Part shown: in pieces, positions 1,210-28,180 of the stretch
Layout of the letters: each line of letters opens with the position of its first letter
Numbering within the stretch: position 1 is the stretch's first letter
IMG/VR virus record: IMGVR_UViG_3300042389_000157
Span: 1 to 30,045 of that record
From: a virus
DNA length: 30,045 nucleotides
Direction: 5' to 3' (one strand)
The notes under the pieces: generated by a model
Seen by the model: the letters and a program-made list of their open reading frames with translations, nothing else
What the model was told of the DNA's origin: nothing
Databases searched by the model: none
Made by a program: the position numbers and the translations under genes

Positions 1210-1315
1210 GATTGATTTGTTAGAGCTTCTGGAGATATCATCGGAGGATCTCGTTGAGAGATTTATTGATTTAATTGAAGACAACTTTGACAAACTTGAG
1301 AAAGAAGTAGAATGA
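1160..1315 (+). CDS. small acidic conserved phage protein (51 aa)
   Basis: This 51-residue frame begins MALTIHDLKDRLKQINEID and continues with an acidic helical section containing ISSEDLVERF and KLEKEVE. It lies in another frame from the end of the glycosyltransferase and overlaps it by 50 bases. Its stop overlaps the reductase start as ATGA. I recall similar short acidic proteins in other podoviruses and cyanophage-like genomes, but know no function. The Shine-Dalgarno sequence is weak (AAAGAAAG just before the ATG), so translation is probably coupled to the upstream gene. Confidence 0.7.
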   Translation: MALTIHDLKDRLKQINEIDLLELLEISSEDLVERFIDLIEDNFDKLEKEVE

Positions 1316-3216
1316 CCTATAACACACCATTTAGCACAGTCGGCTATATTACATACAAAAGAACCTACGCAAGGAGATTAAATGAAACAGATCCAAAATC
1401 AAAAACAGAAGAGTTTACCGACACCGTTGAACGGGTTATTAAAGCTGCTAACGATCAGCTAAGCTGTGGCTTTGACGCTGACGAGCAAGAGCGTCTACGG
1501 AAGTACTTGTTGGAACTGAAAGGCACTGTTGCTGGACGATTCCTGTGGCAAATGGGGACAGAGACAGTTGATCGCTTAGGATTAGCTAGTTTACAGAACT
1601 GTGCATTTACTGTCATTGATCAACCCGTCCGTCCTTTCACATGGGCGATGGATTTGCTGATGCTTGGCTCAGGTGTTGGCTACAACATTCAGAGGCAATA
1701 TGTTGATAAACTTCCTCCGGTCAACGCTAACTTTAGCGCTCCTACTCGTGTTACTACCGCTGACGCTGATTTTATCGTGCCTGATTCCCGTGAAGGATGG
1801 GTCAAGTTATTGGGTAAGACGCTCAAAGCGGCGTTCTTAGCCGACACCAATCCTACATTCACTTATAGCACTATCCTTGTTCGTGGTCGTGGAGCGCCTA
1901 TTAAAGGCTTTGGCGGTACTGCTTCAGGTCCAGAGGACTTATGTGATGGCATCGTTAAGATTAGTAACATCCTTGAGAAGCGTAAAGGTAAGAAGTTACG
2001 TCCAATTGACTGCCTTGACATCATGAACATTATCGGTGCTATTGTCGTTGCTGGTAATGTACGACGTTCTGCACAGATTGCGATAGGAGACCCTGACGAT
2101 GTTGAGTATCTACTTGCTAAGCGCTGGGACATGGGGAATATTCCTTCTTGGAGAGCTATGTCTAATAATTCTGTTGTTTGCAGCGATACTAAGGACTTAC
2201 ACGAGTACTTCTGGGATGGATATGAAGGCAAAGGAGAGCCATACGGTCTTATCAACCTTAAACTCTCACGTAAGATTGGTCGTCTTGGTGAGACTGATTA
2301 TCCTGATCCTGATGTTATGGGTTATAATCCATGTGCTGAGCAGTCTTTGGCTGCTTATGAAACTTGTTGCTTAGCGGAAGTATATTTACCTAACATCGAG
2401 AGTAAAGATGAGTTGCTTGATGTCTGTAAGATTCTCTATCGTATCAACAAGCATAGCTTAGCACTGCCTTGCCATCTGAAAGAGACAGAAGACATTGTGC
2501 ATAAGAATATGAGAATGGGTATTGGTGTTACAGGTGTGCTACAGGCAACAGAAGAGCAGCGTAGCTGGTTAAATGATACCTATCGCCGACTTCGTGAGTT
2601 TGACTTCAAGTACAGTCATGAGCATAATTTCCCTGAGTCTGTTAAGTTGACAACAGTTAAGCCTAGCGGTACTTTGTCGTTGCTTCCGGGCGTTACTTCA
2701 GGATGTCATCCAGCATATTCTCGTCACATGATTCGTCGTATTCGTATCGCTGCAGATCATGCCTTGGTGCAAGTATGTCGTGAGCATGGCTATCCAGTAG
2801 AGTATCAACGTAACTTCGATGGTTCTGAGGATCACAGCACAATGGTTGTATCATTCCCATTTGCTTATCCTGAAGGAACAAAGATTGCTGCTGAAATGAC
2901 CGCTATTGATCAGTTGGAAGTTGTGAAGTGGTTACAGGCTAACTGGTCAGACAATAGCGTATCCTGTACTGTGTACTATCGCAAGGAAGAATTGCCTGAG
3001 ATTCAGAAGTATCTAGCAAAGAACTACAAGAACAATCACAAGTCCTTGTCTTTCTTGCTACACAATGAACACGGCTTTCACCAAGCGCCTTTGGAGGAAA
3101 TCACGAAAGAGCAGTATGACGCACTCGTGGCTTCTACACGATTAATCACACACATTGATGAAGCTAGTTTTGATGGTGGCGACGAATGTGCCAGCGGAGC
3201 TTGCCCAGTCAAATGA
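1312..3216 (+). CDS. nrdJ: adenosylcobalamin-dependent ribonucleoside-triphosphate reductase (class II, monomeric)
   Basis: The 634-residue protein reduces ribonucleoside triphosphates to deoxy forms using coenzyme B12, supplying precursors for phage DNA. It follows the Lactobacillus leichmannii RTPR pattern: Cys97 in LQNC (redox partner of Cys352), the finger-loop NPCAE at 339-343 with the thiyl-radical Cys341 and catalytic Glu343, Cys352 eleven residues later, KPSGTLSLLPG in the substrate pocket, and the C-terminal CASGAC pair that shuttles electrons from thioredoxin. All expected catalytic residues are present. It is shorter than the bacterial enzyme (about 740 residues), as phage forms often are, and no ATP-cone is visible at the N terminus. 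It is overlapped by the preceding gene and overlaps the following one. Confidence 0.93.
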   Translation: MTYNTPFSTVGYITYKRTYARRLNETDPKSKTEEFTDTVERVIKAANDQLSCGFDADEQERLRKYLLELKGTVAGRFLWQMGTETVDRLGLASLQNCAFTVIDQPVRPFTWAMDLLMLGSGVGYNIQRQYVDKLPPVNANFSAPTRVTTADADFIVPDSREGWVKLLGKTLKAAFLADTNPTFTYSTILVRGRGAPIKGFGGTASGPEDLCDGIVKISNILEKRKGKKLRPIDCLDIMNIIGAIVVAGNVRRSAQIAIGDPDDVEYLLAKRWDMGNIPSWRAMSNNSVVCSDTKDLHEYFWDGYEGKGEPYGLINLKLSRKIGRLGETDYPDPDVMGYNPCAEQSLAAYETCCLAEVYLPNIESKDELLDVCKILYRINKHSLALPCHLKETEDIVHKNMRMGIGVTGVLQATEEQRSWLNDTYRRLREFDFKYSHEHNFPESVKLTTVKPSGTLSLLPGVTSGCHPAYSRHMIRRIRIAADHALVQVCREHGYPVEYQRNFDGSEDHSTMVVSFPFAYPEGTKIAAEMTAIDQLEVVKWLQANWSDNSVSCTVYYRKEELPEIQKYLAKNYKNNHKSLSFLLHNEHGFHQAPLEEITKEQYDALVASTRLITHIDEASFDGGDECASGACPVK

Positions 3217-19483: not shown

Positions 19484-20062
19484 ATGCCATTCTATCGCCG
19501 CCTCACAGAAGCAGACTATGATCTTGTTAAAACACTCGCCCTGCAAGGTGAAAAACTTGAGGATATTGCTAAACAACTTAGCACATCCGTCAGCCGTCAA
19601 CGTATAAAGCAAATAACACAACAATTCGGTATTGATTCTTTTAGCATTCGTCAGACTAAAAAGGCTGAAGCACTAAATTCCCGTATGTTTGCTAAATGGG
19701 GTAAAGAATGGAATAACAAACAATTCCGTAAAAGTGCTATTTATCAAACAATGCGTGAAAAATTCCGAGCTAAAAAAGCCAATGCTATTAAATCAGGGAA
19801 GGAATTTACAATCGAGTTTGGTGATCTTGTTTTCCCTACCCATTGCCCTGTTCTAGGATTAGAATTGGATTATTTTAACGATACAAGAGCAGAAAATACT
19901 GTCACTTTTGATCGTGTAGACCCCTCTAAAGGCTATATCAAAGGCAATGTTGTTATGATTTCGTGGCGTGCCAATCGTATTAAAAACGACGGCACTGCCG
20001 AAGAGCATTTACAAATTGCTAACTTTATGAAGCAGCACGTTTCTGAAGCATCTGTAAACTAG
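19484..20062 (+). CDS. HNH-type endonuclease with N-terminal HTH (probable homing endonuclease)
   Basis: The 192-residue protein has a helix-turn-helix-like start (LTEADYDLVKTLALQG, EDIAKQLSTSVSRQRIKQI) and a C-terminal domain containing CPVLGLELDYF, then TVTFDRVDPSKGYIKGNVV and SWRANRIKNDGT. The CPxxGxxL...DRxDxxxGYxxGNVxxxSxxxNxxK order is that of a common phage HNH-type nuclease family, often mobile. It is the only plus-strand gene within 3467-24259. It has its own promoter and AAGGAG ribosome site, and its last 38 bases overlap the 3' end of the portal gene on the other strand. It may be a free-standing homing endonuclease inserted between portal and scaffold genes. Confidence 0.82.
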   Translation: MPFYRRLTEADYDLVKTLALQGEKLEDIAKQLSTSVSRQRIKQITQQFGIDSFSIRQTKKAEALNSRMFAKWGKEWNNKQFRKSAIYQTMREKFRAKKANAIKSGKEFTIEFGDLVFPTHCPVLGLELDYFNDTRAENTVTFDRVDPSKGYIKGNVVMISWRANRIKNDGTAEEHLQIANFMKQHVSEASVN

Positions 20063-22022
20063 CAATACGCTCGTTGCTCTTAATATCTTCTTCCTTGAGA
20101 GCTAATTCAGCAATCTTGGCTCGTTGAGCAAACTCTCCTGAGCTATCTTGACCACGAATGTTCTGCGATAGCCCTGAAATAATCTTGGCTTGGGTCTCTT
20201 GTGGCATTAACTGAGCCTCAACTACGTCTTTCTGAGCAGAAGCGTTGTTTCTAGTGGCTTCTGACTGCAGTTTAGCAATTTCAGCCTGTGCAGTAGCGGT
20301 TTGGAGCTGCATTTGAGCCTGTTGCATCTGTTGTTGCTCTGGGCTAGGCTGCGTCATCTGCTCTAGTTGCTGGATCATCTCAGCACGATTTGGCAAGCTA
20401 GAAGAGCTAATGATACCTTTGAGGATCATTGGCAGTACTGGAGTGTCAGGACCGAGAGTTTGTAGCAATGCGATGAGCTGCTGTTGTTCGTATTCACGGG
20501 CAATGATACCTAATGTAGCCATTGGGATAAACTTGTAATCAGAAGCAGGATAACGCTCAGGGTCAAACTGCATAAAGCGATAAGCAGCTTTACGAATCAA
20601 TGGAACTAAGAAGTCCTCTTGGAAGTTTGTTAATGTACGCTTGTACTTCTTAACGATACCAGCAACCGACATTGACATCTGAGCTGCACCGTCACGGGTA
20701 AACTGTGTTGGCTGCCCAGCAGCATCGGTTGTTCCTGTAGCCTGAAGAAGCATTCTTTCAAAGTTCTGGCTAATCGCTAAGTTACCTTGATCGGTAGTAC
20801 CAAACTTGAATGGGAATAGGATCTCTGCTGGATTACCATTGGTGAGGATTGCTTTGCCGGGTTTGACTTCAAACTTAGCGCCACGAGGTAATCGTGTAGC
20901 ATCCATTGCAATCATTGGCGATGTGGTGAGGGCTAGGCTGTCAAGGTGTGAACGCAATTGAGCGTCAATACCTTTTTGCATATTGTAAGCCTTCTCGACT
21001 GTGCCACGACCCCAGAAGCGATTTGGTACTGTATCATCCTGATATGCTACAACAGGACGATCCTTCATCATGTAAGGCGTTTTCTCCGCTTTGAGTAGTA
21101 AGTCGCCATTAGCAATAACAACGATGGCTTCGACGAGGTCGCTATACTGATCCGCAGTGCTATCCTCCGGAAATAAGTCAACAACTTCTTCACCTTCTTT
21201 GTTCTCCAATTGTTCAATGTATTCACGAGGAACTAAACCGTAATACTTCATCAGAAGTACTTTGTCATCCTTAAACTGTACTTGTTCCTGTGTTGGCTCA
21301 AGATCGTCGTCTTGTCCGTAGGGTTGGATGTCTACCTTACGATAGATACCCTTCTCGATCCCAGAGACAATCTGGTGAATCGATACATAAGACTCGATAG
21401 CAACTCCCATTGCATCATCAACGGTTGTAGCGTTGGGATCAATGAGGAAGTTCTTTGGATTGATGGGATTTAGCTTGACGCAGGTATATTCCTTCTCCAT
21501 CACTCCGTAGGCGGCAGTACCGTCTTCCATTGGCATTGTTTGTGGGAACATCTCAGTCTTCTTAGAGACTGTTAACTCACCAATACCAGTACCGTAAATC
21601 TCAGCTAACAACTCAACCTGAGTGATAGCCTTCTTAATATTCTCTTTCTCTAGGTCTTCTTTGAGCTGGAGTTTAAGGATTTCAACATCAATAAACTGTT
21701 GATCGGCAACATCATCAGCGATGTCAAACCATTCGCCATTTCCGAATACTGCTTCGCAAATCTCTGCGTGTCTTGTTTCCACAGCTTGCTGAGTCGCTGG
21801 GGAGATAATACGGCTGCGCTCAGATTCTCTAGTGCGGTCTTCTGCAGCCCACTTACCTCTAAATATTCTTTCATATTCTTTCCACTCTTCTAAGTAATTT
21901 GTATCTCTGTGGTCTCTCCACCGGTCACAGTGAGAGACAACGAACTCGACAATCTCTTTGTCTGATTCGGTTGGTTGCTCGAACTCGTTTTGTCCTAGTT
22001 CGTCTTTTTCAAATTCAGCCAT
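20025..22022 (-). CDS. portal protein
   Basis: The 665-residue protein forms the ring through which DNA enters and leaves the capsid. Visible features are CDRWRDHRDTNYLEEWKEYE and RIFRGKW near the start, RSRIISPATQQAVETRHAEI, a central region with NPINPKNFLIDPNATTVDDA, NRFWGRGTVEKAYNMQKGID, and a Gln-rich C-terminal coiled coil (about 555-630) like the barrel of P22-type portals. Size, order (just after terminase) and motifs agree with podoviral portals. The 3' end overlaps the antisense HNH gene. The gene upstream ends nine bases before this start. Confidence 0.9.
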   Translation of the reverse strand: MAEFEKDELGQNEFEQPTESDKEIVEFVVSHCDRWRDHRDTNYLEEWKEYERIFRGKWAAEDRTRESERSRIISPATQQAVETRHAEICEAVFGNGEWFDIADDVADQQFIDVEILKLQLKEDLEKENIKKAITQVELLAEIYGTGIGELTVSKKTEMFPQTMPMEDGTAAYGVMEKEYTCVKLNPINPKNFLIDPNATTVDDAMGVAIESYVSIHQIVSGIEKGIYRKVDIQPYGQDDDLEPTQEQVQFKDDKVLLMKYYGLVPREYIEQLENKEGEEVVDLFPEDSTADQYSDLVEAIVVIANGDLLLKAEKTPYMMKDRPVVAYQDDTVPNRFWGRGTVEKAYNMQKGIDAQLRSHLDSLALTTSPMIAMDATRLPRGAKFEVKPGKAILTNGNPAEILFPFKFGTTDQGNLAISQNFERMLLQATGTTDAAGQPTQFTRDGAAQMSMSVAGIVKKYKRTLTNFQEDFLVPLIRKAAYRFMQFDPERYPASDYKFIPMATLGIIAREYEQQQLIALLQTLGPDTPVLPMILKGIISSSSLPNRAEMIQQLEQMTQPSPEQQQMQQAQMQLQTATAQAEIAKLQSEATRNNASAQKDVVEAQLMPQETQAKIISGLSQNIRGQDSSGEFAQRAKIAELALKEEDIKSNERIASLQMLQKRAAS

Positions 22023-22030
22023 GATTTTCC

Positions 22031-22594
22031 TTATTTAGTGGTATCGCCGAAAGGGTCTGTATAAAAAGGAGATGCCTGTTTAACCATCATTGGTTTTTTT
22101 AAATACTGCTGTAAACCAGTTAACAGTTCCCGTTGTTGCGGGGTATAAGCATCAGCCCATTCGTTGTTTTTGTCAGGGGCTAAGAATCCTCGTAGATATG
22201 CATCTTGTCTACTAACCCGAAACCAGTCTTCAAATGATCGTGTTTCTTTGTTTTCTCGTTTAGCTCGTTCGTAAGCGGCTTTGTCAACTGCAAGCTGATC
22301 TGGTGTTAAGGAGCTAATAAAAGTATCTCTAACTTGCGAGAACGTAGGATCTACTTCAGGAAGATAATGAAGCATATCACCAAAGATAGCTTTCTTTAAT
22401 TCTTCACCTTTTAAATCTTTAGAGAATACTTCTAAAGTAGGAGTACCGGGGTTAGGGTTATACTTCTCGTCTGGAGAATAAAATTCTATTACACCGCCGT
22501 ACGGTGACTTCTTTCCACGAGAATCAATTACCTTAAAAGGAAACTGACTCAGACTTGGATATTCAGCGTAGATTTCTTTTAATATTTCTTCCAT
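22031..22594 (-). CDS. conserved protein between large terminase and portal (187 aa)
   Basis: I know this type only as a conserved phage protein of unknown role. The 187 residues begin with a short helix, then VIDSRGKKSPYGGVIEFYSPDE, NPGTPTLEVFSKDL, GDMLHYLPEVDPTF, SLTPDQLAVDKAAYERA, RSFEDWFRVSRQDAYLRGFLAPD and YTPQQRELLTGLQQYL. The DxLHYL element looks faintly like a metalloprotease helix, but no full HExxH is present. Its start codon is one base within the terminase stop region, implying coupling; a packaging or head-assembly role is inferred from position alone. Confidence 0.65.
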   Translation of the reverse strand: MEEILKEIYAEYPSLSQFPFKVIDSRGKKSPYGGVIEFYSPDEKYNPNPGTPTLEVFSKDLKGEELKKAIFGDMLHYLPEVDPTFSQVRDTFISSLTPDQLAVDKAAYERAKRENKETRSFEDWFRVSRQDAYLRGFLAPDKNNEWADAYTPQQRELLTGLQQYLKKPMMVKQASPFYTDPFGDTTK

Positions 22595-23850
22595 TAGTAT
22601 CCGCTTATCACATCGAGTACTTCATAATCATCTTCGTCATAGTCCTGCTGATAACTAGTCAAGGACATCTGATCGACATACGCTAATGCGTCCACAAGGT
22701 CATCATGGACATTAGCGGTAGGAAACTGGAGTACTTGATCTACGAACTCTTTCCAGTCTTCATCTTCGTTAAGGGTAATCCTGCCGTGTTCAAACCTACC
22801 CTGTAACGCCCAAGCTACTCGCTCAGTCTTTTTCTTGTTGCCATGCGTCAAATCTGTGATGTGAAAGTACGTATTGTTCTTCCTCATCAAATCGTTTAAG
22901 TAGGGATGTACTGCATTCTTTAGCGCCCCTCTTTCGATTCCTACAGCCATCGGTTTGTATTCTTGTACAAGTCTAAGTATCTTTCCCGCTGTCTCTTTAA
23001 TATCCCAACGACCATGTACAATCTTCTCAACGAACCAATCTCCAGTGTCTTCTACTTTTACAATTGCGATAGCGGATTCATCTAACCGTTTCTTAGAAGC
23101 GCCTGCATTCTTAGCAACTTCTTCAAAACCGGCAAGGTCGATAGCGATGATGTAGTCGCCATACTGCGGAGCCTCGCCATACTTAATCCACTCTTCTTTG
23201 AATATCTCCTGACCGGCATTGTCAAAAGAAGCCTCATACTCTTGTTTGAACGCAAACGATGAGAGTGTTTTCTTCGCTGCGTCCACCTCTTTCGGGTCAA
23301 TCGTCTCATTGTCTTTCGTGGTGAAGTGCCATGCTTTCCATTCTTCGTCTTCTTCTGAGAAGCCTAGTTTATACATATCGTAAAACCAGTTACGCCCTGA
23401 CGGAGTGGAGATAAACATAGCTTCTCCTTTGTTATCCGACAGAGAAGCACGAACAATCTTCTCCCACGTCTCCTGCTTAATAAACGCACACTCGTCAAGC
23501 ACTGCGTAATACAAACTCAGACCACGAAGGGTATCGCTGTTGTCTGCGCCACGAACATGAATCTTACGACCATTCACCAAGGTGATGTCCAGATTGTTAA
23601 TGTGAGCAGACTTAATCACAGGTCTACCGATCTCTAGGAGGCTGTCCCAGATGATTTGTCTGGACTGCCCTAGGGTAGGGGACACATATAATACAGCGCT
23701 GCCCTCTGGTGCCTCTAATGCCTTTATAATGAGCATCATGGTAGCGAGTCTGCTTTTGCCACACCGCCGCCCGGCTGCTATCACTTTAAAGCGAGTCTTA
23801 TCCTTAAAGACTTCTTGTTGCCAATTCAGTAACTGGAAGTTAAGATTCAT
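22594..23850 (-). CDS. terL: terminase large subunit (ATPase-nuclease packaging motor)
   Basis: The 418-residue motor pumps and cuts phage DNA. Its ATPase half has a Walker A-like GRRCGKS (27-33), Walker B YAVLDE (115-120, with Glu120 catalytic) and coupling motif STP (149-151). Its RNase H-like nuclease half has IAIDLAG (235-241, Asp238), GIERG (304-308, Glu306) and VHDDLVDALAY (381-391), giving the acidic metal-binding triad. All needed residues are present. It overlaps the small subunit by 11 bases and is followed by the conserved 187-residue gene and the portal. Confidence 0.95.
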   Translation of the reverse strand: MNLNFQLLNWQQEVFKDKTRFKVIAAGRRCGKSRLATMMLIIKALEAPEGSAVLYVSPTLGQSRQIIWDSLLEIGRPVIKSAHINNLDITLVNGRKIHVRGADNSDTLRGLSLYYAVLDECAFIKQETWEKIVRASLSDNKGEAMFISTPSGRNWFYDMYKLGFSEEDEEWKAWHFTTKDNETIDPKEVDAAKKTLSSFAFKQEYEASFDNAGQEIFKEEWIKYGEAPQYGDYIIAIDLAGFEEVAKNAGASKKRLDESAIAIVKVEDTGDWFVEKIVHGRWDIKETAGKILRLVQEYKPMAVGIERGALKNAVHPYLNDLMRKNNTYFHITDLTHGNKKKTERVAWALQGRFEHGRITLNEDEDWKEFVDQVLQFPTANVHDDLVDALAYVDQMSLTSYQQDYDEDDYEVLDVISGY

Positions 23851-24259
23851 CTTCTTCCACCATGTCTACGACACCAGCATCTACTGTGGGGTTATTCAAC
23901 CCAGTAATATTGATGCTGATCTGTGGAGTGGTTCCACCGTTCTTTGCTGCATCGAATACCGACACTGGCAATATTCTATCGACACATAGCTTTAGTGCCG
24001 CCATGTTATCCTTATCGTCAGGGTTTAATGCTTTAGCGATAAGTGTTTCAATTATTTTATCTCCGGAAGTGCCTAGCAACCTTGCTTTGAATTCAGCAAT
24101 TCGTGCAGAGTCTCCGGCAGGTCTTCCGACCTTACCTCTGTTACCCTTCTTCTTCGCCTCGATGTCCTTCTTTAGGGGACGACCTAACTTACGACGAACA
24201 ATCTTAGGACGTTGTTTCTTTTCGACAACATCAGTTGTTACTTCTAATTCGTTTGACAA
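23840..24259 (-). CDS. terS: probable terminase small subunit with AT-hook-like motifs (TTG start)
   Basis: The 139-residue protein has a basic N-terminal part with two GRP cores, KLGRPLKK and KVGRPAGD, of the AT-hook type, then a helical part (RIAEFKARLLGTSGDKIIETLI, LKLCVDRILP) and a flexible acidic end. It would recognise phage DNA for packaging. The start is a TTG at 24259, with AAGGA eight bases upstream; no in-frame ATG precedes the conserved part. Position immediately before terL, overlapping it by 11 bases, supports the call; family similarity alone is modest. Confidence 0.7.
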   Translation of the reverse strand: MSNELEVTTDVVEKKQRPKIVRRKLGRPLKKDIEAKKKGNRGKVGRPAGDSARIAEFKARLLGTSGDKIIETLIAKALNPDDKDNMAALKLCVDRILPVSVFDAAKNGGTTPQISINITGLNNPTVDAGVVDMVEEDES

Positions 24260-24424
24260 GTCTTTATCCTTTTGGAGACGTTGTTGCGAAGCAACGATTT
24301 TATTAACTGCTTTCTATAAAATCCAGCCTTCGGCTGTACTATATAGGATTTACGCTATCGGAGAGGTTTCTATAGGAGAAGAATATTAATCATCCTATAT
24401 CGCTATCGGATATCCCTAACATCC

Positions 24425-24453
24425 GATATAGTTATTATACTGAGAACTATATC
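24425..24453. repeat. inverted repeat over the terminase promoter -10 (candidate operator)
   Basis: GATATAGTT (24425-24433) and AACTATATC (24445-24453) are perfect 9-base arms 11 bases apart. The right arm covers the -10 of the minus-strand promoter and the left arm lies just after +1, a typical position for a repressor site. Confidence 0.55.
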
Positions 24454-24474
24454 ATACTTTTACTTAAATTACAA
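24446..24474 (-). promoter_or_regulatory. extended -10 promoter for the terminase/late operon
   Basis: Minus strand: TTGTAA (24469-24474), 17 bases ending in TATGA, then TATAGT (24446-24451, 5 of 6 to consensus). The predicted start near 24440 gives a leader of about 180 bases before the TTG start of terS. The 39 bases from AGCATAAT upstream through the -10 match the promoter at 19387-19415 at 30 positions. Confidence 0.72.
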
Positions 24475-24509
24475 TGATTATGCTACTGTACATTGTTAAG
24501 CATACGCCT

Positions 24510-24582
24510 TAGTCCCTCCGGTGCGGGACTTCACAGTCTAGACAGGTCTCCGCAACCTATCCGCTATAGTCCCTACGGTGCG
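24510..24582. repeat. pair of 16-base direct repeats TAGTCCCTnCGGTGCG
   Basis: Copies at 24510-24525 and 24567-24582 differ at one base. The first is followed by GGACT, making an AGTCCC...GGGACT hairpin (24511-24530). They are 57 bases apart in the gene-free region; role unknown. Confidence 0.6.
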
Positions 24583-24691
24583 CTGATCCCGCTACAGTCC
24601 AGTCTACGACTGTGTCCCTTTATTGTCTACTTTAGACTCCGTATAAATATACTTTATTATCAACTACTTACGATATAGTGTACTATGCTTC

Positions 24692-24734
24692 TTTTTTACT
24701 ATTTTGTATACTTGCTTTTTACTGTTTTGTATAC
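24692..24734. repeat. tandem pair of TTTTTACTnTTTTGTATAC repeats
   Basis: Copies at 24693-24711 and 24716-24734 differ at one base and are offset by 23 bases, about two helix turns. Each ends in the palindrome GTATAC. This looks like a tandem protein-binding site. Confidence 0.65.
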
Positions 24735-24840
24735 AGTAGCGGCTCCGACAACATTACACAACACAGCCAACCCCACCCCCCCTATGTTGTTTTAATACAA
24801 CACGTTAGCGATAGTGTTGTTTCTACGCAACAGTCTTGGT

Positions 24841-24978
24841 CATAGTCATAGACTATCAAGATACATTGTCGATAGCGTGGCTGTATGGGGCTATGATGCA
24901 CCTTTATAGTGCAACCTAGTAAACCTTGCACCAACACAGGGCATAGACATAAACTATCAAGCAACCTCACCGATAGCG
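24841..24978. repeat. 37-base imperfect direct repeat (CATAG...CGATAGCG)
   Basis: Copies at 24841-24877 and 24942-24978 share CATAG, ACTATCAAG and CGATAGCG cores in the same order and spacing. They lie among other GATAG/CTATC elements, giving an iteron-like look. Confidence 0.6.
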
Positions 24979-24996
24979 CCAGACTATCACGGCATC

Positions 24997-25180
24997 AGGG
25001 TAAACCCTTAAATACTGTTTAGACTGCAATACAGGGTCATAGAGGCGTTTTTGCCTGAGTTGAGGGGTTAGTATTGCCACACTATCGATCTCGATTTTCG
25101 AGGGTAAACCCTAAGTATAAAGACTGAGAGAATCATTACTAATTGTTATATTCCACATTGTAAGAATCAGGGAAAACCCT
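24997..25180. repeat. three AGGG-N4-CCCT palindromes upstream of the early genes
   Basis: AGGGTAAACCCT at 24997-25008 and 25101-25112, and AGGGAAAACCCT at 25169-25180. A looser form, TAGGG-TTTGT-CCCTA, occurs at 25670-25684 between the second and third early genes. The repeated palindrome ahead of the early arm suggests operators. Confidence 0.6.
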
Positions 25181-25257
25181 AATAGAATTACTTGATGATT
25201 AGCGTTAGACTGTAATTGTAGTGATTGATTAACAGTAGATAAGAAAGGTAATAAATC

Positions 25258-25443
25258 ATGAATCCATTAAAACAGTACATCACAGACGAACTCTTAAACG
25301 AGTACGCTAACACCCGTGACAAAGCCGTATTGATAGCGGATACGCTAGGGGTATCGATTAGTAGTAGCAAATGGGAAGACTTAGAGCAGTTAGTCATTGA
25401 CTGTTGCGCCACTCGTAACATTGAAATAAACTGGTACGAATAA
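25258..25443 (+). CDS. unknown early protein (61 aa)
   Basis: This is the first gene of the plus-strand early arm. The 61 residues are mainly helical (MNPLKQYITDELLNEYANT, DKAVLIADTLGV) with KWEDLEQLVIDCCATRN near the end, containing a Cys-Cys pair. I recognise no family. AAAGG precedes the ATG. Being first after the large regulatory region, it is likely expressed early and could act on the host, but this is inference. Confidence 0.6.
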   Translation: MNPLKQYITDELLNEYANTRDKAVLIADTLGVSISSSKWEDLEQLVIDCCATRNIEINWYE

Positions 25444-25469
25444 TTAACTAATAACAGGAGAGTAAAACC

Positions 25470-25667
25470 ATGTTCACATTAAAAGACTTTCTCAAAGACT
25501 TAAAACAGTGCAAGCGAATTATGGGCTATGTTAAGTATAGCGAAGATGACGGCACATACTTTGAAATGAAAAAGACTGATGTATTGTTTGTGTTCAAAGA
25601 CTATCCAAAAGATACACAAATCAATTACAGGGTTGATTTTGTTCACAATACCATTTATCTAAACTAA
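25470..25667 (+). CDS. unknown early protein (65 aa)
   Basis: The 65-residue protein starts MFTLKDFLKDLKQCKRIMG and continues with alternating hydrophobic strands (YVKYSED, YFEMKKTDVLFVF, INYRVDFV), suggesting a small helix-plus-beta-sheet fold. I recognise no family. AGGAG lies nine or ten bases before the ATG. It follows the first early gene by 26 bases and precedes a TAGGG/CCCTA inverted repeat. Confidence 0.6.
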   Translation: MFTLKDFLKDLKQCKRIMGYVKYSEDDGTYFEMKKTDVLFVFKDYPKDTQINYRVDFVHNTIYLN

Positions 25668-25744
25668 ACTAGGGTTTGTCCCTATTGCGGATCATTATCG
25701 ATAGGGATAGACTGTAAACACTTAAACACTTGAAAGGGATTATT

Positions 25745-25930
25745 ATGAAACAATTTAACCACAAAGACTATTTAGTTATCCTTGATTACAATCATAATGG
25801 TTGCTTAGCCACTGCCATTGGTGATAATGATTATTTTAAGATTCAGTATCAGGGATATACAGACAGACAGATTAAGGGTAGAGTAAAACATCAGATTGAT
25901 TATCGTATTGAGAATGGCATTAAACAGTAG
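25745..25930 (+). CDS. unknown early protein (61 aa)
   Basis: The ATG at 25745, with AAAGGG about seven bases before it, is a better start than the in-frame TTG at 25730. The protein reads MKQFNHKDYLVILDYNHNG, then a beta-rich middle (CLATAIGDNDYFKIQYQGYT) and a basic helix (RQIKGRVKHQIDYRIE). I know no family. The compact sheet-and-helix layout resembles other small phage early proteins. Confidence 0.6.
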   Translation: MKQFNHKDYLVILDYNHNGCLATAIGDNDYFKIQYQGYTDRQIKGRVKHQIDYRIENGIKQ

Positions 25931-25977
25931 TAAACTTAACAGAGCAGTATCTTAACTTTAGACAGGAGATTTACATT

Positions 25978-26274
25978 ATGAGAAAGATTGAAATTCAAAT
26001 GCTTAACGCTATCGAGTCCAAGCGCAATTGGACAATGGATAACACACTTGTCCATATTGAGAATGGTGGCGGGAATCCCTTTGGCTTGCGTGCTGAAATC
26101 TACCTACACGGGAATCATATCGCTGATTATTGGTATGATTCTAAAGAGTTAGATGTTGATGTCAAAACCTTAGCACAATGGCAAACACCTACAACTAAAT
26201 CACGCCTGAGAGCATTGGGCGCTAATGTTAGCACTCGCAAGGGTGTCACTTATCTCAACAATGTCGCAATCTAA
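25978..26274 (+). CDS. conserved phage protein with HGNHIA motif (98 aa)
   Basis: The 98-residue protein has MRKIEIQMLNAIESKRNWTMDNT, then AEIYLHGNHIADYWYD and KTLAQWQTPTTKSRLRALGANV. The order MRKIExQMxxAI...VxLHGNxIA...TTxSRLxAL is one I recall from many phage genomes (T4-like, podoviral and siphoviral), always as a hypothetical protein. AGGAG precedes the start. Its wide distribution suggests a useful conserved early function that I cannot name. Confidence 0.7.
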   Translation: MRKIEIQMLNAIESKRNWTMDNTLVHIENGGGNPFGLRAEIYLHGNHIADYWYDSKELDVDVKTLAQWQTPTTKSRLRALGANVSTRKGVTYLNNVAI

Positions 26275-26287
26275 TAAGGGGCTTAAA

Positions 26288-26479
26288 ATGCGTTTTAATA
26301 AAGAAAATACACTCAATCACCTTTGGCAACATATCGAGAGATTAGAGAAACAATGGGGCTTTAATCCTGATACTGGGTGGAATCAAATCGTTGGCGCTGA
26401 CTTACAAAAGGTTATCGCTTATGGTGAATATGACGGGTACAAAAAAGTTATTGATTCAATTAATTACGGCACTTTATAA
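26288..26479 (+). CDS. unknown early protein (63 aa)
   Basis: The chosen ATG at 26288 follows AAGGGG by about eight bases; the frame stays open to a TTG further upstream, but that would overlap the preceding gene. The 63 residues are helical with several aromatic residues (LNHLWQHIERLEKQWGFN, GWNQIVGADLQKVIAYGEYDG). I recognise no family. Translation probably depends on this small intergenic ribosome site. Confidence 0.58.
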   Translation: MRFNKENTLNHLWQHIERLEKQWGFNPDTGWNQIVGADLQKVIAYGEYDGYKKVIDSINYGTL

Positions 26480-26489
26480 AGGAATAATC

Positions 26490-26789
26490 ATGGGCGCAAC
26501 TAACACATATAACGGATGGACAAACTACGCCACATGGCGGATAAATCTTGAGATATTTGATGGTAAATCGCTTAGCGATTATTCAGATGCAGATGATGTC
26601 TGTGATGTTGCAGATGATTTAAAATATTATCTAACAGATTATTTTGAGCAAACGGCACAAGATGGCATAAACAATGGGTCTGATTTGTCCTTAATGCGAG
26701 ATTATGCCTTAGCGTTTATTAGTGATGTAAATTGGCATGAAATCGCTCAACATTTAGTCGATAACTATTCGGAGGCAAACCATGATTAA
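26490..26789 (+). CDS. DUF7249-like protein with NGWTNYATW motif (99 aa)
   Basis: The ATG at 26490 gives MGATNTYNGWTNYATWRINL followed by an acidic stretch (SDADDVCDVADDLKYYL) and a helical end (ISDVNWHEIAQHLVDNY). YNGWTNYxTWxxxL is the signature of a widespread phage/plasmid family I know as DUF7249. Its low pI and small size resemble DNA-mimic or anti-restriction proteins, but no activity is established. It overlaps the next micro-gene by eight bases. Confidence 0.72.
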   Translation: MGATNTYNGWTNYATWRINLEIFDGKSLSDYSDADDVCDVADDLKYYLTDYFEQTAQDGINNGSDLSLMRDYALAFISDVNWHEIAQHLVDNYSEANHD

Positions 26790-26862
26790 ATCATTATTGC
26801 TTACTGGCGTGTGTTTATACACTTGCTTAACTGCTGTTTATGTTATTGTTTTCTACCTATGA
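26782..26862 (+). CDS. micro membrane protein (26 aa)
   Basis: The frame encodes MIKSLLLTGVCLYTCLTAVY and VIVFYL, a single hydrophobic span of about 20 residues with one Lys at the start. GGAGG stands six bases before the ATG, a near-perfect ribosome site, which supports a real gene despite its size. It could be an inner-membrane effector; no family is known to me. Confidence 0.5.
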   Translation: MIKSLLLTGVCLYTCLTAVYVIVFYL

Positions 26863-26874
26863 AAGGGGTTTATT

Positions 26875-27096
26875 ATGAAAGATTATCCAACAACGCAATT
26901 CTTAAAAGATGCTTTCCCATATGCTTTAGGTTATTGGCAAGGCAGATCGTCAGGCTATTTTGAGAATGGCACTTATGAAAACATGAGCGATTTTCATAAA
27001 CACTTATATAAGTTAGGATATGATTCAGGAGTGGCAGATTATTGCGAATTAGATGATGATTGCCCGAAGTTTGAACCCGCTAAAGAGGAGATATAG
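26875..27096 (+). CDS. small early protein with GYDSGVADYCE motif (73 aa)
   Basis: The 73 residues contain FPYALGYWQGRSSGYFENG, then HKHLYKLGYDSGVADYCELD and an acidic end. I have seen the ALGYxxGR...YxxGYDxGVxDYC arrangement in other phages' hypothetical proteins and assign no function. It begins 12 bases after the micro membrane gene, with AAAGGGG ahead of the ATG, and is followed by the next gene after two bases. Confidence 0.62.
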   Translation: MKDYPTTQFLKDAFPYALGYWQGRSSGYFENGTYENMSDFHKHLYKLGYDSGVADYCELDDDCPKFEPAKEEI

Positions 27097-27596: not shown

Positions 27597-27764
27597 ATGA
27601 GTAAGGATAGATTTGACTACTATATGGAATTTATGTCGATGCGCTTAGATGATCCACAATTTAGGCTTATGTATGGAATAAATGAGTTCGATAAATGGTA
27701 TTCTGATTTTATGGAGATACTTTCACAAAAACACTCTGAACCCATGGAAGAGAATAAACCATGA
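27597..27764 (+). CDS. unknown early protein (55 aa)
   Basis: This short frame encodes MSKDRFDYYMEFMSMRLDDP, QFRLMYGINEFDKWYSDFME and a polar end. It is aromatic- and Met-rich and probably helical. AGAGGGG is about seven bases upstream of the ATG, and the stop overlaps the next start as ATGA, arguing for a real gene. I know no family. Confidence 0.58.
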   Translation: MSKDRFDYYMEFMSMRLDDPQFRLMYGINEFDKWYSDFMEILSQKHSEPMEENKP

Positions 27765-27862
27765 AAACTGCACTATTTTGGTGCATGACATACCTAATTT
27801 TAGCCTATGTTGTCTATCATCTTGTTGGAGTGATGTTATGTTATACTTGGGAATACCTCTAA
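27761..27862 (+). CDS. micro membrane protein (33 aa)
   Basis: The frame encodes MKTALFWCMTYLILAYVVYH and LVGVMLCYTWEYL, a hydrophobic span of about 24 residues with one Lys near the start. It is ATGA-coupled to the previous gene. It is the second micro membrane protein in this early arm; the two are not clearly similar beyond hydrophobicity. The role is unknown. Confidence 0.5.
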   Translation: MKTALFWCMTYLILAYVVYHLVGVMLCYTWEYL

Positions 27863-27952
27863 AACGCTCTAAAACGGCGTATACGGGGTTTTTATGGGGT
27901 AGGTAATACCTCGGTATCATCTACTATGTTTTAATCGAATAGAGAGGGTTTT

Positions 27953-28180
27953 ATGCACTGCACAATATGCGACAAAATGCTTAATGATTATGAGTCAACA
28001 CGAAAGACCTTAGATGGTAAATACTTGGATATGTGCCAAGAGTGTTACACAGGTTTAGACGTGCTGATACCGACAATAGACAGAAAGGATTTACTACACG
28101 AGGCAGATATGCCGTCAATGGATGAAATATTTGACGAATACGGGGACTATGAAGACTATACCAACAATGAAGACCTATAA
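27953..28180 (+). CDS. zinc-ribbon early protein (75 aa)
   Basis: The 75-residue protein begins MHCTICDKMLNDYESTRK and continues YLDMCQECYTGLD, giving two CxxC pairs (residues 3-6 and 28-31) that would bind zinc, then an acidic end (DEIFDEYGDYEDYTNNED). Small CxxCDKxLxDxESTR...CxxC proteins are common in phages, with no function known to me. GAGAGGG precedes the ATG. The 90 bases before it contain an ATACC-TC-GGTAT inverted repeat (27906-27917). Confidence 0.7.
   Translation: MHCTICDKMLNDYESTRKTLDGKYLDMCQECYTGLDVLIPTIDRKDLLHEADMPSMDEIFDEYGDYEDYTNNEDL

Follow-up and report, generated by a model that had tools for sequence, protein, structure and literature searches.

The window analysed here is a linear 30,045-base virus record from IMG/VR (IMGVR_UViG_3300042389_000157), and its source is an aquatic virus of bacteria. 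Positions 24260-25257 hold no recognisable gene, are rich in repeats and separate a leftward from a rightward gene arm, as a sequence-only reading had described. The leftward arm opens with terS and terL (22594-24259), followed by portal, scaffold, capsid and tail genes; a rightward arm of small genes begins at 25258. TerL, the large terminase subunit (22594..23850, minus strand), matches the PHROGs family phrog_2 (E 3e-46), and its nuclease half, and that half only, also matches the T7-type family phrog_38 (E 1e-27). The neighbouring gene (23840..24259, minus strand) is named terS, for a putative small terminase subunit, from its position next to terL: searches of PHROGs and Pfam gave no match, and one scan of bacterial genomes with the protein returned no relative. 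It starts with TTG, with the RBS AAGGA just upstream, and this start and RBS line are kept among relatives, with ATG instead in some (for example L027). The first small ORF of the early arm (25258..25443, plus strand) has a conserved leader and RBS block, and the gene itself differs among relatives. Within the late arm, an HNH/endonuclease gene (19484-20062, plus strand) runs against the direction of the arm and overlaps the end of the portal gene.

A TerL scan yielded 156 related contigs, 80 of which were kept, with identities from 99% down to 67%. The gene-free region could be aligned in the 26 relatives that were long enough, giving 27 regions with the window; these consist of conserved blocks with variable stretches between them and many insertions and deletions. 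Positions 22000-27000 had no DNA match in the phages collection of cultured phages, and the best TerL and MCP matches of the window lie below 60%, with no DNA similarity that would place it in Saffermanviridae or Cobavirinae. The relative G003 (loci L091 and L092) encodes a T7-like primase/helicase, PolA, an ssDNA-binding protein and an exonuclease. A single-subunit RNA polymerase model, run with no positive control, matched nothing in 15 long relatives and nothing in the controls either. The record of G003 has 39,997 bases and its ends overlap each other by 529 nt, so that it was assembled as a closed molecule; positions 27756-28029 of the window match, at 80% DNA identity, a stretch of G003 that overlaps a gene-free gap in its own early arm.

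The repeats of the gene-free region are real. Five hairpins lie where the sequence-only reading had placed them, namely CAGCCTTCGGCTG (24324-24336), AGTCCC..GGGACT (24511-24530), CAGTCTACGACTG (24600-24612), TGTTGTTTTAATACAACA (24785-24802) and AACAC..GTGTT (from 24799), and terminator-like hairpins number six in 23500-26000 vs 1.5 expected. Four short repeated motifs exceed their counts in 200 dinucleotide shuffles: CGATAGCG occurs four times (0.02 expected), CGATATAG three times (0.06), GATAGCG four times (0.10) and ACTATC five times (0.91). The 37-base direct repeat that it reported also exists, but as two 40-nt copies that are 78% identical (at 24838 and 24939). Comparison with relatives, which it had proposed as a check, gave a divided answer: the C-run discussed below is deeply conserved but the GATAGCG repeats are not. 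In five other long contigs, the corresponding region contains one copy of CGATAGCG or none. An Rfam search gave no match, folds computed from the alignments were weak as evidence of a conserved structured RNA, and single-sequence fold z-scores were mostly 0 to -3, with a few lower values, the strongest over the palindromes.

On the leftward side, a sigma70 promoter lies at 24446..24474 (minus strand), with a -35 of TTGTAA, a 17-nt spacer and an extended -10 (TGATATAGT, the -10 at 24451-24446), and would fire left into terS-terL. A predicted sigma70 promoter toward terS is found in all 27 aligned regions; its -35 reads TTGACA in 23 of them and TTGTAA in the remaining four, the window among them. 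Promoters much like it also turn up in many distant relatives, and a TATAGT-N4-ACTATA dyad overlaps the promoter in many relatives. Judged by its conserved -35, 17-nt spacer and -10, this element is a predicted promoter of the host sigma70 type. The leader between promoter and terS (24336..24445, minus strand) is near-identical in close relatives, and no conserved RNA fold was found in it. The terS leader of the window contains a 52-nt insert with two hairpins (24284..24335), which none of the nine closest relatives covering this site has. In others (L008, L018, L022), a 37-nt portion of the insert (24301-24337) is found at a different place of the same region, with a paired stem change from CAGCC/GGCTG to CAGAC/GTCTG; such a compensated change suggests that the hairpin itself matters. 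We considered a dispersed mobile hairpin and rejected it, as the 37-nt element was seen only within the gene-free region in the loci placed and nowhere else in the window.

The rightward side carries elements of another kind. An 18-bp imperfect palindrome, TGTTGTTTNTANRCAACA, is present in two copies 30 bp apart (24785..24832), just right of the C-run, and is found in 22/27 aligned regions, the copy number among relatives ranging from 0 to 3. Neighbouring copies are separated by 30 bp in nine pairs, 19 bp in four and 51-52 bp in three, counted among relatives that are not independent of one another. These steps of 11 and ~21 bp suggest, from the spacing, a protein that would read one face of the helix. 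Further right, the conserved block CGATAGCG..TATGATGCACCTTTATAGTGC (24868..24925, plus strand) may contain a rightward promoter in the window, with a -10 that is not conserved; in the aligned regions a search for a conserved rightward promoter gave only candidates, none kept at one place. Three AGGG-N4-CCCT palindromes follow (24997..25181; at 24997, 25101 and 25169) in a stretch that includes blocks conserved among relatives, and a fourth, with N5, lies at 25671; these four are the only ones in the window and all are on the early side. The 18-bp palindromes or the AGGG-N4/5-CCCT palindromes could be operators or origin sites. Together with the conserved sigma70 promoter, such operator-like palindromes between the two arms bear out the sequence-only reading in its 'switch', that is, a divergent control region.

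Its other half, a replication origin, fared less well. Lambda O acts on 18-bp iterons, and an early protein of this virus might likewise bind the 18-bp palindromes beside the AT-rich stretch (24640..24740, 26% GC) and open the DNA. The palindromes adjoin that stretch, their spacings of 19, 30 and 51-52 bp in the 22 of 27 regions that have them roughly keep the phase of the helix, and the cumulative GC skew has its minimum in the region in six of six long contigs. The palindrome is, however, absent from five of the 27 regions and single in several, two repeat finders detected no array of at least three direct repeats, the region has no DnaA boxes, and no initiator was recognised among 10 early-arm proteins of G003, a subset of its early genes. 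GC skew, a check that the sequence-only reading had named, did give the minimum here, but arms pointing away from each other predict it by transcription alone; we therefore rejected skew as origin evidence, confounded as it is by gene direction (one counter-oriented gene was checked and did not discriminate). With neither iteron array nor DnaA boxes, and with a confounded skew, the origin claim is unsupported and we regard an origin at this place as unlikely. Gene-free regions with a skew minimum between divergent arms are easily mistaken for origins, and the case may serve as a warning. Within the AT-rich stretch, a 23-bp tandem duplication (24684-24734) is present in some relatives and single in others, and two contigs, L002 and L017, stop shortly beyond the duplication.

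The deepest conserved element of the region is a C4AC7 run (24771..24782, plus strand), which the sequence-only reading had also listed. Of the 60 relatives whose sequence extends 900 nt or more upstream of terL, 59 carry it at the same place and on the same strand, to ~67% TerL identity, and where little else of the DNA can be aligned it is the strongest feature in common. Only L061 lacks it, a contig that breaks off 11 nt past the GGCTCC motif, before reaching the C-run. A conserved stretch precedes the run, with a T-rich box followed by GGCTCC. In the window this box is TTTTG (24725..24729, plus strand) and ends 46 nt before the C7 run, which starts at 24776. Among the 59 relatives (54 distinct elements), 50 have a T-run followed by G that ends 45-47 nt ahead of the C-run, and a wider set picked by pattern, from scans of at least 120 contigs each, gave the 45-47 nt spacing in 122/123 distinct elements among the matches listed. 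The complement of the run, G7TG4 on the minus strand, had been read as a possible G-quadruplex, which might act as a switch or a fork barrier; no canonical four-run motif exists near the C-run or elsewhere in the window, and one was found in only 1/59 relatives, so that we give this idea next to no credence.

In the two-arm cyanophages A-4L and Pf-WMP3, a C6 run lies exactly 26 nt inside the left genome end, an observation that prompted a wider comparison. In 17 of 18 T7-supergroup records a run of C4-C8 begins at 20-29 from the left end: T7, T3, phiKMV, HTVC019P and VpV262 at 26, Syn5 at 25, P-SSP7, A-4L, Pf-WMP3, LPP-2, PP and gh-1 at 27, JG068 at 28, SP6 and LUZ19 at 29, ICBM1 at 21 and Pf-WMP4 at 20. 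The failing record, RIO-1, has no run of C4 or longer starting at 20-29 and has one at 38 instead. These 18 references are our own selection, and ICBM1, VpV262, gh-1, JG068 and LUZ19, together with RIO-1, were added after the rule had been seen. For 12 of the 18 records we verified exact terminal repeats; in five others the repeats are as annotated, and the PP record has no exact repeat. Compared with phiKMV, the LUZ19 record opens three bases earlier. Judged from six whole records, a C-run of this kind would fall at 20-29 by chance with a probability of 0.0002-0.006 in five; in the sixth, Pf-WMP3, no other run of that length was counted. Three phages with direct terminal repeats from outside the T7 supergroup have their C-runs near the left end at other places (N4 at 32, LUZ24 at 1 and 12, SPO1 at 7; 0/3 in 20-29).

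A T-rich box, whose letters differ among references, lies 18-22 nt outside the cut in phiKMV, SP6, Syn5, P-SSP7, Pf-WMP3, A-4L, LPP-2, T3 and HTVC019P; none was found at that distance in T7 or Pf-WMP4, and at ICBM1 TTTTTGTG stands directly at the cut, which makes the alignment of the T-box ambiguous there. The five references with TTTTG in this place (phiKMV, SP6, Syn5, P-SSP7 and Pf-WMP3) have the same spacing of 45-47 nt to the C-run as the relatives of the window; T7, T3 and HTVC019P have no TTTTG box. The 46 nt between T-rich box and C-run in the window lies within this range of distances at known ends.

This match, with the position of the region between the outer ends of both arms, laid out as in A-4L and ICBM1, leads us to interpret the region as the place where the left and right genome ends of a podovirus of the T7 supergroup, one without a single-subunit RNA polymerase, are joined, together with divergent promoters, at a probability of about 0.74. 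The gene-free kilobase would then most likely combine a DNA cutting and packaging site with the start signals of both arms, rather than being a plasmid-like origin, and the ends would be seen as one piece because the assembly closed them. From the reference phages we infer that terminase cuts at 24744..24752 (plus strand), the left end of the linear genome, which would place the AT-rich stretch just outside that end; the first base is predicted near 24750/24751 by the C7 run and T-box, or at 24745/24746 by the C4 run. Virion DNA would be a linear molecule with its left end near 24750; it would extend rightward through the early arm, come back along the leftward late arm as far as terS and the sequence left of 24750, and probably close with another copy of what lies right of the cut, as a direct terminal repeat. 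In concatemers, terminase would recognise and cut the DNA between the T-rich box ~20 nt outside and the C-run ~25 nt inside. The region would also hold the promoter that reads leftward into terS-terL and, on the right side of the cut, the early-arm leaders and the palindromes to which regulators might bind.

Several results weigh against joined ends. A terminal repeat is seen here in none of the contigs, and no clear second copy was found at an end in 28 long records; assemblies would collapse such a repeat. The failure of RIO-1, the other offsets of N4, LUZ24 and SPO1, the ambiguous T-box of ICBM1, the lack of TTTTG in T7, T3 and HTVC019P and our own choice of references also count against it. 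Contig ends scatter with no pile-up at the element, three of them (L002, L017 and L107) lying within ~7 nt of it; we rejected contig ends as proof of a physical end, and they neither support nor refute the cut. The window TerL scores best with phrog_2 and not with T7-type phrog_38, which would suit a headful (pac) packaging start with circularly permuted ends in place of a fixed end with a terminal repeat. The self-overlap of G003, which lies at an unrelated place, is likewise what permuted or circularised DNA would give, but closing a terminal-repeat genome in assembly gives an overlap at any place as well, phrog_38 does match the nuclease half of TerL, and the C-run signature fits fixed-end phages; headful packaging appears quite unlikely. 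Divergent transcription control with no genome end, the C-run being a regulator site or a DNA-structure element, would account for the textbook leftward promoter in 27/27 regions with its overlapping dyad in many relatives and for the confinement of the AGGG-N4/5-CCCT palindromes to the early control side, but leaves the match of C-run and T-box spacing to T7-supergroup ends unexplained, and we hold it to be improbable.

Beyond this virus, we tentatively propose, at somewhat less than even odds, that a C-run ~25-27 nt in from the left end, in many cases accompanied by a T-rich box ~20 nt outside that end, is an ancient mark that positions terminase and is shared among T7-supergroup families whether or not they encode an RNA polymerase of their own, that it can be read from closed metagenomic contigs, and that palindromes in a phased array inside the end are an addition of this uncultured family. 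Part of the C-rich end signature is already in print: in the portions covered here, one report describes a conserved G+C-rich 5' end of cobaviral repeats and the use of an ORF-free region to relocate the ends of SIO1 (PMC6775973), and another poly-C stretches in Yersinia phage repeats (PMC5923468). A fixed C-run offset across families is not stated in the covered text of PMC9410186, PMC3896407, PMC6775973, PMC5923468 or PMC10140849, nor under the terms searched in PMC3350473, supplements and subscription papers lying outside this survey. The ends of uncultured phages are usually lost in assembly; with a mark from which the cut can be predicted in closed contigs, many metagenomic podoviruses could be placed in their true linear order, and such a mark would also point to what the terminase of this group recognises.

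Among known systems, T7 itself has C5 at 26 nt from the left end and host promoters beside the end at its concatemer junction, and its primase/helicase, polymerase and ssDNA-binding protein have counterparts in G003; T7 has its own RNA polymerase, a model of which matched none of the 15 long relatives, and, unlike in the window, all its annotated genes run in one direction. A-4L of Anabaena and Pf-WMP3 and Pf-WMP4 of Phormidium (Saffermanviridae) have a rightward early arm, a leftward late arm and terminase near the right end, with terminal repeats of 810, 234 and 107 bp and C6 at 27, 27 and 20 nt, respectively; for the capsid proteins of A-4L and Pf-WMP3 the identity is 26-35%. In contrast to the window, the top TerL family of these three phages is phrog_38 and other genes lie between terminase and the right end. 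The map of ICBM1 (vB_LenP_ICBM1, MF431617; Zobellviridae, Cobavirinae) has two arms like the window; its terminase lies in the leftward arm, its terminal repeat measures 172 bp, and runs of C5 and C6 begin at 21 and 29, respectively, counted from the left end; its first gene starts at 911, so that its joined ends form an ORF-free stretch of ~1 kb, as in the window. It differs in having eight leftward genes between terminase and the right end and in being cut directly after the T-run, and its likeness is one of map and end motifs. The rightward arm of ICBM1 encodes primase/helicase, PolA, exonuclease and, late in this early arm, a cobalamin-dependent ribonucleotide reductase, an enzyme that is not annotated in A-4L, Pf-WMP3 or Pf-WMP4. 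The ribonucleotide reductase of the window (1312-3216, plus strand) is 75% identical to one in the uncultured phage MW202701 from Manatee Spring, and is far closer to it than TerL or capsid are to their own matches.
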